From NCBI RefSeq assembly GCF_033304595.1, contig NZ_CP116341.1, positions 1,655,001 through 1,719,000 on the forward strand: a stretch of 64,000 bases of DNA, given 5' to 3'. The stretch is from Sporosarcina jeotgali. Lineage in GTDB: Bacteria > Bacillota > Bacilli > Bacillales_A > Planococcaceae. The position numbers and the translations under genes are program-made. The first letter of the stretch is position 1. Every line of letters starts with the position of its first letter. The notes below the pieces were generated by a model, which was not told where the DNA came from, made no database searches, and worked only from the letters and a program-made list of their open reading frames with translations. Shown one piece after another: positions 42,259 through 48,808 of the stretch.

Positions 42259-42314
42259 TCTCTTCATCCTTCCAATCAGCCGCTAAACGTGCGGAATTTT
42301 CTATCTATTGTTAT

Positions 42315-43538
42315 TTACAGTATATGAGACCTTAGACTATTTAGCAAGTATAAAGAACCTGAGACTATTTTCTTTTTACCTAGGTCTTTCGATAGTATTA
42401 TAGACGCATTTTCTTGTTCTGTCACCTGTTTTCTTCCAAATTCACATTGATCGTAAACGAATTGTGCAGTCGCTGCTCCGGGCACATCAAAATCAATGAA
42501 GGTAAAAGAATGTGCTACCGGTATTAATTCATTAAGTGTTTCTTTAATTTCTTTATTGGCCATCATTCCAATAACAAAATCTATTTTCTCACAGGGAAAT
42601 TGTTCCTGTACGGTACGTCTGAGCATGGCAGCGGCAGCCGGATTATGGGCTCCATCGAAAAACACATCAGGTGCGACTTCTTCAAATCGGTTGGAAAGCT
42701 GTGCGTTCGCAATCCCGGATTGAATGGATTCTGTGGGAAGCTGAAGATCGGCTTTTAGCAGCGCTTCAATTGCAACTGCTGCATTGATAGCCTGATGAGG
42801 ACCTTTCATTTTTCTGTCAGATAAATTCATGTTTATACTTCCGTGGAAGTGCTCGGGATTACCTTCCTTCATCCAGAAGTTGTGTCCGTATGTCATTAAC
42901 GGACTGCCCACATCTGCCGCAACTTTTTCTGCAACTGCTAGTGCTTCTTCAGGTAATTGGCCACATACAGCAGGAACTCCTTTTTTAAAAATCCCGGTTT
43001 TATGCCACGCGATCTCTTCTATTGTATTTCCAAGGAATCCAACATGATCTTTTGCGATAGATGGAATAACAGAAACCATCGGAATGATCACATTCGTGCT
43101 GTCGAATCTTCCGCCCATCCCGCATTCAATGAGGACTACATCAGGTTTCAGCCGATTAAAAGTCACAAATGCTGCTGCTGTAATAAGCTCAAAGTCTGTC
43201 AACATCCCATCCAGTCCAGAATCTTTCAATGTTTGAAATGTAGCTGTCAGCTCCGCTTCAGTAATGTTTTCACCATTCAACCGGATTTGGTCATGAATAT
43301 CGACCATCGCTGGAGAAGCAAAGACACCTGTACGGATCCCCGCTTCGCGAAGAATGGATTCCATGAAACAAATGGTTGAGCCTTTCCCGTTCGTTCCGGC
43401 TACGTGAATCGCCCGCAGTTCTTTTTGCGGTGATCCAAGAAGTTCCATCGCATGCTCAATCGCTGCAAGCCCCGGCTTAATTTCATTAACGCTCGTGATT
43501 TTCACTTGTTTCTTATACTCGTCCAATTTCGGTATCAT
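42315..43538 (-). CDS. folC: Folylpolyglutamate synthase / dihydrofolate synthase
   Basis: Adds glutamate to (dihydro)folates, Mur-ligase superfamily. P-loop AGTNGKGST near residue 48, DHVGFLGNTIEEIAWHKTGIFK near 165 and DGAHNPAAA near 290 (family signatures) are intact. Length 407 is slightly short at the C-terminus compared with B. subtilis FolC (430). ATG 43538 follows GGTGGTCAAAAGGT. It is divergent from the ATP-grasp pair and shares an 88-base spacer with it. Confidence 0.95.
   Translation of the reverse strand: MIPKLDEYKKQVKITSVNEIKPGLAAIEHAMELLGSPQKELRAIHVAGTNGKGSTICFMESILREAGIRTGVFASPAMVDIHDQIRLNGENITEAELTATFQTLKDSGLDGMLTDFELITAAAFVTFNRLKPDVVLIECGMGGRFDSTNVIIPMVSVIPSIAKDHVGFLGNTIEEIAWHKTGIFKKGVPAVCGQLPEEALAVAEKVAADVGSPLMTYGHNFWMKEGNPEHFHGSINMNLSDRKMKGPHQAINAAVAIEALLKADLQLPTESIQSGIANAQLSNRFEEVAPDVFFDGAHNPAAAAMLRRTVQEQFPCEKIDFVIGMMANKEIKETLNELIPVAHSFTFIDFDVPGAATAQFVYDQCEFGRKQVTEQENASIILSKDLGKKKIVSGSLYLLNSLRSHIL
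42319..42347 (-). promoter_or_regulatory. Promoter of the diguanylate cyclase pair
   Basis: Minus strand TTGCTA (42342-42347), 17-base spacer, TATACT (42319-42324), inside the folC 3' end and about 60 bases before the first cyclase. Confidence 0.6.
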
Positions 43539-43626: not shown

Positions 43627-44493
43627 TTGAAGAGATGCTGGATTATTTATAATGGAAGTTTGGTAAACGACAAATTCCGGGATCAGGCGGAACTTGTACA
43701 TGATGCTGCTGATCGGGCAAGTGTTTCTGCAACGATTTATAAAAATTATGAAATCATGATGGATGTAACGCAAAAAGTCGAATCACTCCCTGATTTCGTC
43801 GTGTTTTTGGATAAAGATATTGTTCTTGCCACCTATTTAAAATCTCTTGGCATTCCCGTATTTAATGATCCTGAAGTGATTGAGCGCTGTGACAATAAAA
43901 CGAAACAAGCGATTGCTCTTGCGCACGATGGAATTCCCATGCCCCGAACAATCATTGCACCAAAAGTGTATCCGAATTTCACAATCCGGGACAGCGGTTA
44001 TTACGACAGAGTTTTACAAGAGCTCGGCCTCCCTATGATCATTAAAGAAGCTCGCGGTTCTTTCGGAATGAATGTCTATCTGATTGAAACCAAGGAACAA
44101 TTTTTCGAGAAGACAGAGTCATTGCGCGGTATTGATTATTTATTTCAAGAGTTCGTCGCTTCGAGCCGCGGACGCGATATTCGGGTGAACGTCGTTGGCG
44201 GCCAGGTTGTCGCCGCGATGTATCGCCATTCCGAGACAGATTTCCGCGCAAACATTACAAACGGCGGTATTGCCGAAATCGTTGAATTGACGGATGCGCA
44301 AATCGAGATTTCATTACAAGCAGCTGAATCTGTTGGTGCAGATTTTGCTGGGGTGGACTTATTGTTCGGTAAGAATGAGGAACCGCTTATTTGTGAAGTG
44401 AATGCCGCAGCACACATCCGGAATATTTATAATGTCACGGGTATTAATGTAGCGGATGCGATGATTTCGTACATTTTAGAGGTGATCGAATGA
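43627..44493 (+). CDS. RimK-like ATP-grasp ligase, first of a pair
   Basis: A 288-residue ATP-grasp protein. A pre-ATP-grasp domain (MKRCWIIYNGSLVNDKF) leads to the ATP-binding lysine and loop (MIIKEARGSFGMNVYLIE, near 140), QEFVASSRGRDIRVNVVGG, the FRANITNGG loop and the metal-binding ICEVNAAAHIRNIYNVTG. This matches RimK/LysX-type alpha-L-glutamate ligases, which form amide bonds using ATP. Substrate unknown. Start is TTG 43627 behind GAAGAAGGG. It overlaps the next gene by 4 bases (ATGA). Confidence 0.8.
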   Translation: MKRCWIIYNGSLVNDKFRDQAELVHDAADRASVSATIYKNYEIMMDVTQKVESLPDFVVFLDKDIVLATYLKSLGIPVFNDPEVIERCDNKTKQAIALAHDGIPMPRTIIAPKVYPNFTIRDSGYYDRVLQELGLPMIIKEARGSFGMNVYLIETKEQFFEKTESLRGIDYLFQEFVASSRGRDIRVNVVGGQVVAAMYRHSETDFRANITNGGIAEIVELTDAQIEISLQAAESVGADFAGVDLLFGKNEEPLICEVNAAAHIRNIYNVTGINVADAMISYILEVIE

Positions 44494-45287
44494 AAGGCTA
44501 TATTTATTATGAAGAGGATGATGCGTTACGCAATCAATGGTTTATCGACGAGCTGATCAAAGAAGGCAATGCAAACCAGCTGGATGTCGAATTACTGACA
44601 GGTGACGATGAACTGCCAGGCGATGCGTCGTTCGTCTTTTATCGCGCACGTGACGTTGAAAAGAGTCAGCGATGGGAACAGGAAGGACATGTTGTCGTCA
44701 ATCGAAGTGAAGTGAATCGTGTTGCGAATGACAAATTTCAAACGTTCCAGCTTGCTGCGCTTTTGGGAGTCCCTTCAATTCCTGCAAGACGGGTGGATTC
44801 TGTTCAGGATATTCAAAAGTATCCTATAGTTATAAAAACGACGAATGGACACGGTGGCGCAGAAGTCCATTTATGTGAGACGAACGATGAAGCGGAGCAC
44901 GTGATTTCGCTTTATCCAAATCGACAGCTGGTGATGCAGCCGTACATTCAGCACAATTCTTCTGATGTCCGACTTTATTTAATTGGCGTTGAAGTTGTGG
45001 GAGCTGTAAAGCGCACTGGAACGGATTCATTTAAGGCGAATGTTGGATTAGGTGGAACAGCTGAGCGATTTGATGTCCCTCCTCCATTGCGTGAGTTCGC
45101 TGTGAAGATTGCCAAAGCACTGAAGAGTGACTATATCGGAGTTGATTTCATTCAGAATGCAGAAGGCGTCTGGTTGTTGAATGAAATTGAAGATCCTGTA
45201 GGTGCCCGGTCACTTTACGAGACAAGTGAATTGAATGTGGCGCGGGAAGTCATGCGGCATATCCATAAAAAACTTACAAAGTGCTGA
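44490..45287 (+). CDS. ATP-grasp ligase-like protein, second of a pair
   Basis: A 265-residue ATP-grasp protein related to its neighbour but divergent. Visible are YPIVIKTTNGHGGAEVHLCE (about 110), MQPYIQHNSSDVRLYLIG, FKANVGLGGTA and LNEIEDPVGARSLYETS. The last motif normally reads E-x-N; here it is EIED, so the Asn metal ligand is replaced by Asp, and activity or metal use may differ. It overlaps the first gene by 4 bases, implying a stoichiometric pair or heteromer. The stop codon lies inside the terminator stem. Confidence 0.75.
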   Translation: MKGYIYYEEDDALRNQWFIDELIKEGNANQLDVELLTGDDELPGDASFVFYRARDVEKSQRWEQEGHVVVNRSEVNRVANDKFQTFQLAALLGVPSIPARRVDSVQDIQKYPIVIKTTNGHGGAEVHLCETNDEAEHVISLYPNRQLVMQPYIQHNSSDVRLYLIGVEVVGAVKRTGTDSFKANVGLGGTAERFDVPPPLREFAVKIAKALKSDYIGVDFIQNAEGVWLLNEIEDPVGARSLYETSELNVAREVMRHIHKKLTKC

Positions 45288-45310
45288 TTCAGCATTTTGT
45301 AAGTTTTTTT
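45271..45310 (+). terminator. Terminator after the ATP-grasp pair
   Basis: A 15-bp stem (45271-45285 with 45291-45305, one G-U pair) with a loop of 5 bases and a run of T on the plus strand. Confidence 0.9.
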
Positions 45311-45505
45311 GTTGTTTGCAAAGCTTGATTTTATTGAAGTTGTCCATCATTCCAGGTAGTTTCTCGATCACTCCGATGTTTTTATCAGACACTTAGCTGA
45401 ATTTCTCAATATCGAAACACGATTTAAGAGCTTTAAGGGATTAATTGGCAGCGCTTCGCTTGATTTTAAGTGATTTTGTTGTACATGTATGAATTTAGGT
45501 TAGCG

Positions 45506-45665
45506 TTATGAGCGTTTTTTCGGAGTTATGAGCAACTTTGGTGTTTTATGAGCGCTTCCAGCGACTTATGATCGCTTTCCCTGGTTTATGATCACATTTT
45601 GAGTTTTATGAGCTCATTCCTCGTTTTATGATCGTTTTACAGAGTTTATGATCACCTCCCCAGTC
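45506..45665. repeat. Tandem array of eight 20-bp units, TTATGA(G/T)C plus 12 variable bases
   Basis: TTATGA followed by G or T and then C begins at 45506, 45526, 45546, 45566, 45586, 45606, 45626 and 45646, exactly 20 bases apart eight times. The 12 bases between cores differ in every unit. A 20-base period excludes coding repeats and gives two helical turns, so all cores face the same side of the DNA. The array lies between the two converging terminators, in a 375-base gap with no gene. The flank 45313-45505 holds nothing recognisable. Confidence 0.85.
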
Positions 45666-45683
45666 GCATCAATAGAACCAAAT

Positions 45684-45711
45684 AAAAAAGGGCTTTCGCT
45701 AGAAAGCCCTT
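45684..45711 (-). terminator. Terminator after valS
   Basis: Perfect 10-bp stem (AAGGGCTTTC 45688-45697 with GAAAGCCCTT 45702-45711), 4-base loop, T run at 45684-45689 on the minus strand. Confidence 0.9.
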
Positions 45712-45717
45712 CCTCAC

Positions 45718-48366
45718 TTAAATCTCTTTTAATTCCTCGATACGGCGCTGAACGGCAGCTTGTTTTTCGAGATAATCCTGTTCTTTTGCACGTTCTTCAT
45801 CTACAACAGACTGTGGTGCTTTTGAAACAAAGCGTTCGTTGGACAATTTGCCTTGAACACGTTTCACTTCCCCTGCCCACTTATCCAGTTCTTTTCCTAG
45901 ACGTGCGATTTCTTCATCAATGTTTAGCAAGCCTTCTAGCGGCATGAAGAGCTCTGCACCTGTTACGACTGCAGACATCGACTTGCCTGGCGCTTGAGCG
46001 TCTACGCCGATCTCAAGAGTTTCTGGATTACAGAATTTCTCGATGTATTGGCTATTCGCTTTCAAGACAGCTGCAGTCGCTTCGTCTTTCGCGGCGATGT
46101 ACAACGGTACTTGTTTGCTCATAGGCGTATTGACTTCTGCACGAATTGTACGAACCGCTTTGATGACATCTGTCAATAGCTTCATGTGAGTGGAACGCTC
46201 AACGTTCGTTAGGCTTGCATCCGCCACCGGCCATGCAGCAACAGTGATTGACTCACCTTCATGCGGCAAGTTCTGCCAGATTTCTTCTGTAATGAACGGC
46301 ATGAGCGGGTGCAGCAAACGCATCGTATTGTCGAGGACATATGCCAGAACTGAACGCGTCATGTGCTTCGCTTTCTCGTCGTCTCCATACAATGGCAGCT
46401 TCGCCATCTCGATATACCAGTCACAGAAATCATCCCAGATGAAGTTATAAAGCGCGCGGCCGACTTCACCGAACTCATAGCGATCTGACAGCTTCGTCAC
46501 AGAGTCAATGGTCTCGTTCAAACGAGTTAGAATCCAGTCGTCTGCAACAGATCGTTCTCCAGACAAATCGATTTCTTCATATTTCAAGCCTTCCATGTTC
46601 ATCAGCGCAAATCGGGAAGCGTTCCAGATTTTATTGGCAAAGTTCCAAATCGCTTCAACTTTCTCAGTCGAGTAGCGGAGATCCTGTCCTGGTGATGAAC
46701 CGGTAGCCAGGAAGTAACGCAATGCATCGGCACCATACTGATCGATAACATCCATGGGGTCTACCCCGTTACCGAGTGATTTCGACATTTTGCGTCCGTC
46801 TTCTGCACGTACTAATCCGTGAATCAGTACATCCTTGAATGGACGCTGATCCGTAAACTCGATGCCTTGGAAAATCATGCGAGACACCCAGAAGAAGATG
46901 ATGTCATATCCTGTAACAAGAGCATCTGTTGGATAATAGCGTTTGAACTCTGGATCTTCCGTATCCGGCCAGCCCATCGTAGAGAACGGCCATAATGCAG
47001 ACGAGAACCATGTATCGAGTACATCGTCTTCCTGGTGCCAGTTTTCGATGTCTGCAGGTGCTTCTTCTCCTACAAACACTTCACCAGTTTCGTTATGGTA
47101 CCAGGCTGGAATCCGGTGGCCCCACCACAATTGACGGGAAATACACCAGTCGTGAACATTTTCCATCCACGTTAAATAAGTTTTCTCGAAACGCTCAGGA
47201 ACGAACGTCACTTTTCCTTCTGCCTTCTGCAATTCAATCGCTTTTTCAGCGAGCGGCTGCATTTTAACGAACCACTGAGTAGACAAATACGGTTCTACAA
47301 CTGCGCCGCTTCGCTCTGAATGACCGACAGAGTGATTGTGTTCTTCTATTTTGAAAAGAACGTCCATGTCCTGCAAATCTTTAACGATTGCTTTGCGGCA
47401 TTCGAAACGGTCCATTCCTTCGTACTTACCAGCCAACTTGTTCATTGAACCATCTTCGTTCATCACAAGAACACGCGGCAAGTCATGGCGATTTCCGATT
47501 TCAAAGTCATTCGGATCGTGTGCAGGTGTAATCTTAACCGCACCGCTTCCGAAGTCCATTTCAACGTAATCATCCGCTACGATAGGAATTTCACGGCCAA
47601 CAATCGGCAACTTCACAGTTTTACCGATTAAGTGCTGATAGCGCTCGTCATCAGGGTGAACAGCAACAGCCGTATCCCCTAGCATCGTTTCTGGGCGAGT
47701 TGTCGCAATTTCGATACTTCCAGTTCCATCTGCAAGGGGGTATCGCATATGATAGAAAGCACCTGCTACATCTTTATGGATTACTTCGATATCGGACAAA
47801 GCAGTTTTCGTCGCAGGGTCCCAGTTGATAATATATTCGCCGCGGTAAATTAACTCTTTTTCATATAACTTGACGAATACTTCACGGACTGCGCGTGATA
47901 ATCCTTCATCTAACGTAAATCGTTCTCGGGAATAATCAAGTGCAAGACCCAGCTTTGACCATTGTTTGCGAATATGGCCAGCATATTCATCTTTCCATTT
48001 CCACGTTTCTTCCAGGAATTTCTCACGGCCAAGGTCATAACGAGTCTGCCCGTTTGCACGGAGCTTTTCTTCGACTTTTGCTTGCGTTGCAATACCTGCG
48101 TGGTCCATACCTGGAAGCCATAAAGCATCATATCCCTGCATGCGCTTCATGCGAATCAGAATATCTTGAAGTGTTGTGTCCCAAGCGTGACCCAAGTGTA
48201 ATTTGCCCGTAACGTTTGGAGGCGGAATCACAATTGTATACGGCTCTTTTCCACTCTCAGGCTGAGCTTTGAAGTACTCACCCTTCAACCACCATTCATA
48301 ACGATCTCTTTCAATCGTCTGCGGATCATACTTAGTCGGCATCTCCAACTGCTCTTTTTCTGTCAT
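45718..48366 (-). CDS. valS: Valyl-tRNA synthetase
   Basis: Class Ia synthetase of 882 residues. The HIGH motif is [12 protein letters not shown] near residue 50 and KMSKS is in [14 protein letters not shown] near 525. The editing domain ([19 protein letters not shown]), anticodon-binding domain and C-terminal coiled coil ([20 protein letters not shown]) follow in order. ATG 48366, 7 bases after GGAGG, is better than the GTG at 48369. A T-box leader upstream means expression rises when tRNA-Val is uncharged. Confidence 0.98.
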
Positions 48367-48493
48367 CACAATTCCTCCTCAATTTAAAAGTTGAACATCA
48401 TAGGGATCGCTTCGCTTACTGTACGCCATTGTTTAAAACGGAAAGCGTCCGCCTTCAGTGTAAATCAACATATGTTCCCTATAAAAATCAACA

Positions 48494-48755
48494 CAAAAAA
48501 CCCCTTCGTCGTTAAAGGACGAAGGAGTCAGTTCGCGGTACCACCTTTATTCGCAACTGTGCAGAAATCGCACGTTGCCTCAATAAAAATAACGGCTTCT
48601 AACCGGCTCTCGCTACTTGAAACTAAACGTTCACGAAAACTGCTGACGGGTGACTTTCAAACTGTCGACAATAGGTCCTTGCACCATCCGGACCCTCTCT
48701 GAAAAAGTTGACTGATCTACTCTCCCGCTAAACGCATCACTATCCTGTTTCCAAT
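48494..48755 (-). ncRNA. T-box riboswitch leader of valS
   Basis: The T-box motif AAAGGTGGTACCGCG lies at 48534-48548 on the minus strand. It is followed by the terminator (CTTCGTC/GACGAAG stem 48503-48525) and seven T at 48494-48500. Upstream are Stem I elements: AGAGAGGGTCCGG and GGTGCAAGGACC. Two candidate GTC (valine) specifier triplets are at 48667-48669 and 48652-48654, consistent with valS. Confidence 0.9.
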
Positions 48756-48785
48756 AGTTTACCGGATGTATAGCGTACCCGTCAA
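48756..48785 (-). promoter_or_regulatory. Promoter of the valS T-box leader
   Basis: Minus strand TTGACG (48780-48785), 18-base spacer, TAAACT (48756-48761), directly before the leader. Confidence 0.6.
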
Positions 48786-48808
48786 GCCCGCTGTGAAAGG
48801 ATGGTGTT

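Follow-up and report, generated by a model that had tools for sequence, protein, structure and literature searches.

Intergenic direct-repeat arrays with an exact 20-bp period in Sporosarcina, usually of eight or more units, are candidate sites for a cooperative nucleoprotein complex

The subject of this study is a non-coding array of eight direct repeats between two converging genes in a 64,000-nucleotide stretch of the Sporosarcina jeotgali chromosome (hereafter the window, with coordinates counted from its first base). On one side lies a forward-strand gene for a RimK-like ATP-grasp protein of 265 amino acids (44490..45287), which served as our anchor for comparing orthologous loci and whose end carries a terminator-like hairpin (45267..45309, + strand). 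Facing it is the valyl-tRNA synthetase gene valS (45718..48369, - strand), named by eye from its sequence and its T-box leader (48512-48741, - strand; Rfam RF00230, 113.7 bits), with a terminator-like hairpin of its own (45678..45721, - strand). The array (45506..45665, + strand) is built of 20-base-pair (bp) units, each a core TTATGAKC followed by a 12-bp spacer. K reads G, G, G, T, T, G, T, T in order, the core being TTATGAGC in units 1 (45506..45513), 2 (45526..45533), 3 (45546..45553) and 6 (45606..45613), and TTATGATC in units 4 (45566..45573), 5 (45586..45593), 7 (45626..45633) and 8 (45646..45653), all on the + strand. An earlier note on this DNA had described eight cores at exact 20-bp steps, lying between two facing terminators, and both descriptions are borne out, with starts running from 45506 to 45646 and terminator-like hairpins on either side. 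The ~80 bp before the array (45426..45505, + strand) have a GC skew of +0.45. Over both strands of the window TTATGAKC occurs 15 times, against 5.6 (standard deviation 2.5) expected from shuffles, and the seven matches outside the array are scattered singles.

The array belongs to a large family. Pairs of the form TTATGAKC-N12-TTATGAKC number 331 on the forward and 201 on the reverse strand of the same genome (3.20 Mb, one contig), while a reversed control pattern has no match on either strand; 532 pairs against none excludes chance. Searches for array starts yielded 33 stretches, which with the window cover 489 of the 532 pairs; two stretches added later bring this to 509, leaving 23 pairs without a location. 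We examined 54 arrays at 46 loci of this genome (G000), called own arrays below and designated by genome coordinate; one chain that was counted twice (830572) is excluded. No called open reading frame (ORF) of at least 100 amino acids overlaps an array by more than 40 bases at any of the 46 loci, and a 9-mer search for a common flank motif gave only terminator T-runs upstream and nothing downstream. Two hairpin-like words were seen within 350 bp of own arrays, ATTGG..GCGCTTCGCTT near 1700506, 70445 and 304281, and ATTGG.TAAGGGC near 2837145 and 226668; neither occurs in 387 kb of other DNA examined, and they are perhaps an array-associated repeat.

Were the arrays transcribed, they could act as RNA, either as repeated RNA-protein sites or as a long terminator. 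Folding relative to mononucleotide shuffles would suit such a role, with mean z-scores of -1.58 on the forward and -1.89 on the reverse strand and values below -2 at 19 and 21 of the 46 loci, respectively, but the two strands fold alike, and the window array scores -1.55 against dinucleotide shuffles. Further, a promoter scan found no promoter-like match between the two facing hairpins around the window array, which has terminators on either side, and in an Rfam scan of window positions 44500-48800 only the valS T-box exceeded its gathering score, with no match for the array. An RNA function is highly improbable on this evidence.

Unit number is strikingly bounded from below. Counted with two core mismatches tolerated, 51 of the 54 own arrays have at least eight units, and exactly eight is the mode (20 of 54). 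The three arrays below eight are 2653308, 1901976 and 1902313 (5 units): the first adjoins an ISL3-type insertion, the second adjoins an end bearing that insertion's terminal repeat, and the third is a neighbour of the second. The order of G and T at position 7 differs among eight-unit arrays, so the number eight is unlikely to reflect one copied cassette. Clearly copied arrays do occur in a cluster at 2837145-2838580, where five tandem copies of a leader plus an 8- or 9-unit array follow each other at ~317-bp steps. As for the insertion sequence (IS), by eye it interrupts array cores exactly behind their TTAT. This was seen with both ends at own 1593111-1594849 and 2653395-2655133, with one end at own 1901976, and near 2400 of a locus in a metagenome-assembled genome (L168); where both ends are visible, the IS has 8-bp target copies, GGGTTTAT or GGATTTAT. 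The copy at 1593-1595 kb encodes DDE_Tnp_ISL3 and its zinc ribbon. This IS seems to prefer the arrays, as REP-targeting IS do their repeats.

According to the earlier note, an array unique to this genome and absent from all relatives would suggest a chance or decaying repeat; arrays in fact occur in many Sporosarcina genomes and recur at orthologous loci. Of 261 family genomes, 21 have three consecutive units, 20 of them Sporosarcina, and TTATGA occurs four times at the step in 4 of 398 genomes of a class-wide sample. Among the matches listed, records with four units are mostly from Sporosarcina, the other taxa being Fictibacillus, Rossellomorea aquimaris, Bacillus niameyensis, B. litorisediminis and Pontibacillus yanchengensis; the longest array found has 90 units, all of GAGC type (B. 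niameyensis L157, reverse-strand coordinates 462-2250). For comparison with other species we used stretches with four exact units in a row, of which there are at least 120; the 80 analysed (L123-L202) gave 96 chains. Filters for edges and length left 72 Sporosarcina arrays for flank skew, 71 for spacer classes and 81 for unit number, and 66 arrays of any genus for synteny. This sample apparently has several genomes in common with our set of 61 genus genomes, and the two are not independent.

Eight is again the mode in other Sporosarcina (18 of 81 arrays). Of the 66 other-species arrays, 32 are flanked by the two genes that also flank an own array, each gene on the corresponding side, and none is inverted. 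The ATP-grasp gene beside the window array is present in 60 of the 61 genus genomes; an array of at least three units stands at this place in 13 of the 30 same-genus loci examined, our own included, always forward although both orientations were searched, and in the remaining loci the place is taken, by eye, by a short terminator or by unlike DNA. Of the eight arrays counted at this place under the two-mismatch rule, six have exactly eight units.

The strongest evidence for function comes from own array 998155, which can be laid in register over eight units with those of two relatives. In the spacers 52 of 192 positions differ, as against 1 of 112 among the invariant core positions (Fisher 9e-11) and 1 of 16 at K, and the flanks of 100-150 bp are 75-83% identical; at this locus the cores stay constant while the spacers drift to about the extent of intergenic DNA. 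Constraint on the core is a better account than homogenisation, because homogenisation would have preserved the spacers too. Five pairs of eight-unit arrays taken together give identities of 0.97 in the core and 0.61 in the spacer, although spacer identity of only 0.46-0.59 makes the register of the three other pairs uncertain.

These comparisons also bear on the possibility that the arrays are a dispersed direct repeat of the STAR kind (compared below), kept by slippage, conversion and occasional copying and with little or no present function. A comparison of unit gain and loss, proposed in the earlier note, showed that long arrays do change in unit number between relatives, and together with the tandem array and leader copies at 2837145-2838580, a patchy distribution and the 18 of 81 other Sporosarcina arrays with fewer than eight units this would fit such a repeat. 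Drift alone could produce the changes in long arrays. What such a repeat would not lead one to expect is a locus that retains each core in register while its spacers diverge about as far as neighbouring intergenic DNA, the near-floor of eight in the own genome, or a place and orientation common to several species, and we consider it quite unlikely.

The 20-bp unit has more structure than its core. Its consensus is TTATGA, then GCG or TCA, a position that is mostly G or C, two that are A or T, and a bias to C at position 15 and to G, G and G/T at 18-20. Positions 7 and 9 covary in own units (GCG or TCA), and the two types alternate in many arrays, forming a 40-bp dimer. Positions 11-12 are A or T at 0.96-0.98 in own units and at 0.92-1.00 in five Sporosarcina groups of at least 11 arrays each (own leading, own lagging, koreensis, NCCP-2716 and others). 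The 12 spacer bases had been thought to vary freely, which is incorrect, given the A/T at 11-12, the covariation of 9 with 7 and the favoured G, G and G/T at 18-20. In the main Sporosarcina type A/T content peaks at positions 1-4 and 11-12, and its 10-bp harmonic exceeds column permutations in all five groups (p 0.004-0.04). Seen from the minor groove, an A:T pair resembles a T:A pair. Since A can stand for T at 11-12 and vice versa, whereas the core letters are not interchangeable, we infer that the core may be read base-specifically in the major groove and positions 11-12 in the minor groove, half a turn away on one face.

Core letters differ within the genus. Five units at 20-bp steps with only TATG fixed occur in 26 of 61 genus genomes, several of which lack TTATGAKC triplets, and variant cores include TTATGCGTG (G068 and G055), TTATGAGC or TTATGGAC followed by TTT (G045) and ATATGCTCGG (G002). 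The reversed control matched in two genus genomes, where it picks up 20-bp arrays with the complement TATACGAGC (G017:C1:407727-408150; G011:C4), which could be one more core variant or have no relation to the family. A/T at 11-12 is retained in some variant-core genomes and lost in three (G002, G051 and G058). A period that stays constant while recognition letters turn over would be expected of a site co-evolving with its putative protein.

Regarding gene context, the neighbouring genes converge at 18 of the 46 own loci, are co-directional at 25 and diverge at 2, with one locus undetermined. Compared with array-free intervals of the same stretches, convergent loci are enriched (18 of 45 vs 21 of 141; p 7e-4) and divergent ones depleted (2 of 45 vs 33 of 141; p 0.004), with slightly different ORF-length limits for array loci and control intervals. 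The converging-gene setting described in the earlier note holds for the window array; across the genome it is shared by 18 of 46 loci. Elsewhere in the window, a 28-bp tandem repeat of ~2 copies lies at 42312-42370, at the end of a folC-like ORF (42315-43538, - strand).

Positive supercoils collect between convergent genes, and the enrichment there would suit a DNA-topology or bending element without a dedicated protein, in which a 10-bp alternation of A/T and G/C over ~160 bp wraps DNA around gyrase or a nucleoid-associated protein, as in Escherichia coli BIMEs. A total length near 160 bp and the two A/T peaks of the main Sporosarcina type (1-4 and 11-12) also agree with it. Bending, however, requires A/T and G/C and not a near-invariant, one-strand TTATGA.C, and some species change core letters yet keep the period, three of them losing the A/T at 11-12. 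We judge this explanation unlikely.

Both the flanks and the spacers have strand asymmetries. The 60-80 bp before unit 1 are rich in G and T, with a GC skew of about +0.5 beside the array, the flank after the last unit is rich in C and A, with a skew of about -0.3, and both fade over ~100 bp, whereas array-free intervals stay between -0.16 and +0.18. Among the 46 own loci, upstream 60-bp skew is positive at 44 and downstream skew negative at 35, and among 72 other Sporosarcina arrays the corresponding numbers are 68 and 51; in 16 genomes with one locus each, mostly of variant core and with loosely set ends, upstream skew was positive in 12 and downstream skew negative in 10. The upstream skew is present in convergent and both co-directional contexts and is independent of fork direction, while the downstream skew is only -0.1 if the genes are oriented like the array and about zero in leading-oriented arrays. 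Deamination of a 3' overhang was rejected as its cause, since G rises too, which C-to-T change cannot give. A long-range stem between the flanks was likewise rejected for the own genome (duplex energy -32.4 vs -32.8 kcal/mol with mismatched partners); over all 118 arrays true partners reach -33.7 vs -32.0 kcal/mol (standard deviation of the mean 0.57), an advantage we tentatively put down to mixing of species with different base composition. By eye, 5' flanks in S. koreensis (L124, L134, L148, L158, L181 and L201) end in a common TGTGAAG before unit 1 and often come after a GC-rich repeat, and arrays in Fictibacillus (L151, L159, L163, L177 and L195; L163 partly masked) seem to start on the 3' arm of a hairpin that carries the GAGC or GATC word of the units, which could show how arrays are seeded.

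Spacers fall into two classes according to replication strand. With the terminus set at 1.59 Mb after inspection of the data, a position with which local GC skew agrees (+0.139 at 1.455 Mb, -0.010 at 1.490 and -0.069 at 1.593), 14 own loci are leading and 32 lagging in orientation. Positions 10-12 are mostly GAA where the TTATGA strand leads and CTT where it lags, a base-by-base complement and not an inversion, and the 14 leading arrays have spacer purine contents of 0.42-0.77, the 39 lagging ones of 0.19-0.45. When local GC skew is used as a proxy in other species, all 12 purine-class arrays are on the G-rich strand and all 42 arrays on the C-rich strand are of pyrimidine class. Plain mutational skew was rejected as the source of the classes, as array-free intergenic DNA has only 0.528 purine on the leading strand; both asymmetries span tens of bases and exceed local base composition.

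The classes would suit a replication-linked polar element, one serving fork pausing, recombination or translocase guidance, with a purine tract on the leading strand at positions 10-12; where co-directional genes oppose replication, the class goes with the fork (108077, 910132 and 3034379 as scored, 2252623 by eye). Yet both array orientations occur, 17 of the 59 arrays of pyrimidine class in other species are on the G-richer strand, and the terminus was assigned post hoc. A later search for array ends gave two loci that we kept as a hold-out from the rules: 1645481 (18 units, flank skews +0.60/-0.33) has a spacer class of 0.04, as predicted, while 577136 (exactly eight units, +0.33/-0.44) is mixed at 0.50 where a low value was expected, so that the unit-number and flank rules held in both and the strand rule in one. 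We regard such an element as very unlikely. Own loci also lie towards the contig ends, with 28 of 46 within 600 kb of them (p 0.001; the limit was picked post hoc). The origin oriC is probably near a contig end because noc sits at 3.174 Mb. The two contig-end stretches were searched for DnaA boxes and have none. Fork-linked strand choice and this modest origin-side excess are the sole pointers to a role in chromosome organisation or replication, which the earlier note had also suggested.

Core-only conservation at the one locus where it could be measured, the fixed period, the near-floor of eight and the A/T stretch half a turn away together favour protein sites on one helical face. With a probability of about 0.6 in our estimate, each array is a cooperative nucleoprotein array with one protein per 20 bp in runs of about eight or more, placed between transcription units. 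One sequence-specific protein would bind each unit, that is, every two helical turns, with all copies on nearly the same face, with presumed major-groove contacts to TTATGAKC and presumed minor-groove contacts to the A/T at 11-12. At least eight adjacent sites (~160 bp) would be required for a stable nucleoprotein filament or wrap, which would occupy intergenic gaps, many of them following the ends of genes and few of them with divergent promoters. Most likely the complex would mark or insulate, as a roadblock or topology boundary between transcription units, or serve as an anchor for chromosome organisation. Protein contacts two turns apart on one face were the proposal of the earlier note; they fit better than the alternatives tested, though its free spacer has to be given up.

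Several observations weigh against a cooperative protein array. No five-unit array, of TATG or of the reversed pattern, is carried by 33 of the 61 genus genomes, so the system is dispensable; the short arrays in 18 of 81 cases and the differing unit number of long arrays between relatives, mentioned above, count here too. Conservation in register comes from one locus, and arrays were detected through their cores, but since units with up to two mismatches were accepted, decay of the core would still have been visible. Positions 11 and 12 are A or T at 0.67 and 1.00 in Fictibacillus, 0 and 1.00 in B. niameyensis and 1.00 and 0.78 in ACRSL, and the 10-bp harmonic is not significant in these three; at one locus each of G002, G051 and G058, the fraction of units with A or T at both positions is as low as 0.15, 0.06 and 0.28, respectively. 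Likewise, no binding protein was found, ALP_N and Noc having been tested by presence and absence, and neither tracks the arrays.

More tentatively, the arrays could form an undescribed class of replication-polarised chromosomal nucleoprotein array, in which roughly eight or more sites in phase serve a recognition protein that evolves fast. The core letters of such sites would turn over between species while their 20-bp geometry, and in many cases their place and orientation, persist, and the array would act as a domain boundary or anchor, a chromosomal counterpart of plasmid segrosome filaments. A filament site on the chromosome, if real, would bear on how transcription units are separated and DNA is organised beyond the known sites. 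In any case the arrays add a well-bounded, testable element to Bacillota chromosomes: a defined 160-bp bait could fish its putative protein, and natural variants, with 3 to 90 units and several cores, make up a dose and specificity series.

Among known repeats, Noc and ParB sites are single palindromes of 14-16 bp and were rejected, the units here being direct repeats in one orientation; Noc itself is found in 61 of 61 genomes, with arrays or without, and its presence is therefore uninformative. CRISPR loci have repeats of at least 20 bp with unrelated spacers, which does not describe the arrays, with their 8-bp core and related 12-bp spacers. A plasmid or phage origin was likewise rejected, as three queries against plasmid and phage collections gave no match or E of at least 2 with the BLAST low-complexity filter on. 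Three viral contigs carry TTATGA arrays unlike those of Sporosarcina; two related ones (L303 and L304) have seven and six near-identical TTATGAAGCGTGATTTAAAA units at 20-bp steps, which are probably unrelated and iteron-like. In the open-licence PMC literature, searches by unit sequence and by intergenic repeats in these groups gave no like element among the matches listed.

REP and BIME elements are extragenic and chromosomal and are targeted by certain insertion sequences (PMC1525189), all of which is true of the arrays, but they are palindromic in alternating orientation and membership was rejected for same-orientation direct repeats. The TAACTGA direct repeats of Beggiatoaceae similarly form many intergenic sets of one short word with a wide, patchy distribution (PMC4679880); the arrays here differ in their depletion from divergent promoter gaps and in a pattern at the DNA level. 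In geometry the closest parallel is parC of type II plasmid partition, which has direct repeats at steps of 20 bp (pSK41, also described as 10 bp) or 10-11 bp and forms a helical nucleoprotein complex (PMC4911067, PMC9426499, PMC5016525). The arrays share tandem direct repeats at a helical step, but parC is a single plasmid locus beside parM and parR, and they lie at tens of chromosomal loci. A ParMRC centromere was rejected because ALP_N (PF17989) is absent from G000 and the array-rich G007, G010, G020, G022 and G041, ParR not having been searched; ALP_N is present in the array-rich G008, G054 and G062, and such actin-like proteins are common in the genus (26 of 61 genomes, up to four matches each).

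In place the closest are the STAR elements of Staphylococcus, which are interspersed intergenic direct repeats of unknown function at 32-39 loci per S. aureus genome, with a GC-rich 14-bp core, T(G/A/T)TGTTG(G/T)GGCCC(C/A), at least 40 bp apart, and with loci that are mostly single-copy, have at most seven copies and differ in place between species (PMC3532100). The arrays resemble them as intergenic direct repeats in Bacillota, interspersed over 46 loci, with a short core, varied spacers and a copy number that depends on the locus, and are unlike them in core sequence (TTATGAKC, 8 bp), in the exact 20-bp step, in usually having at least eight units and in sharing many places between species. 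The nearest known kinds are thus STAR-type interspersed direct repeats in place and parC-type filaments in geometry, and by test the arrays are a member of neither.
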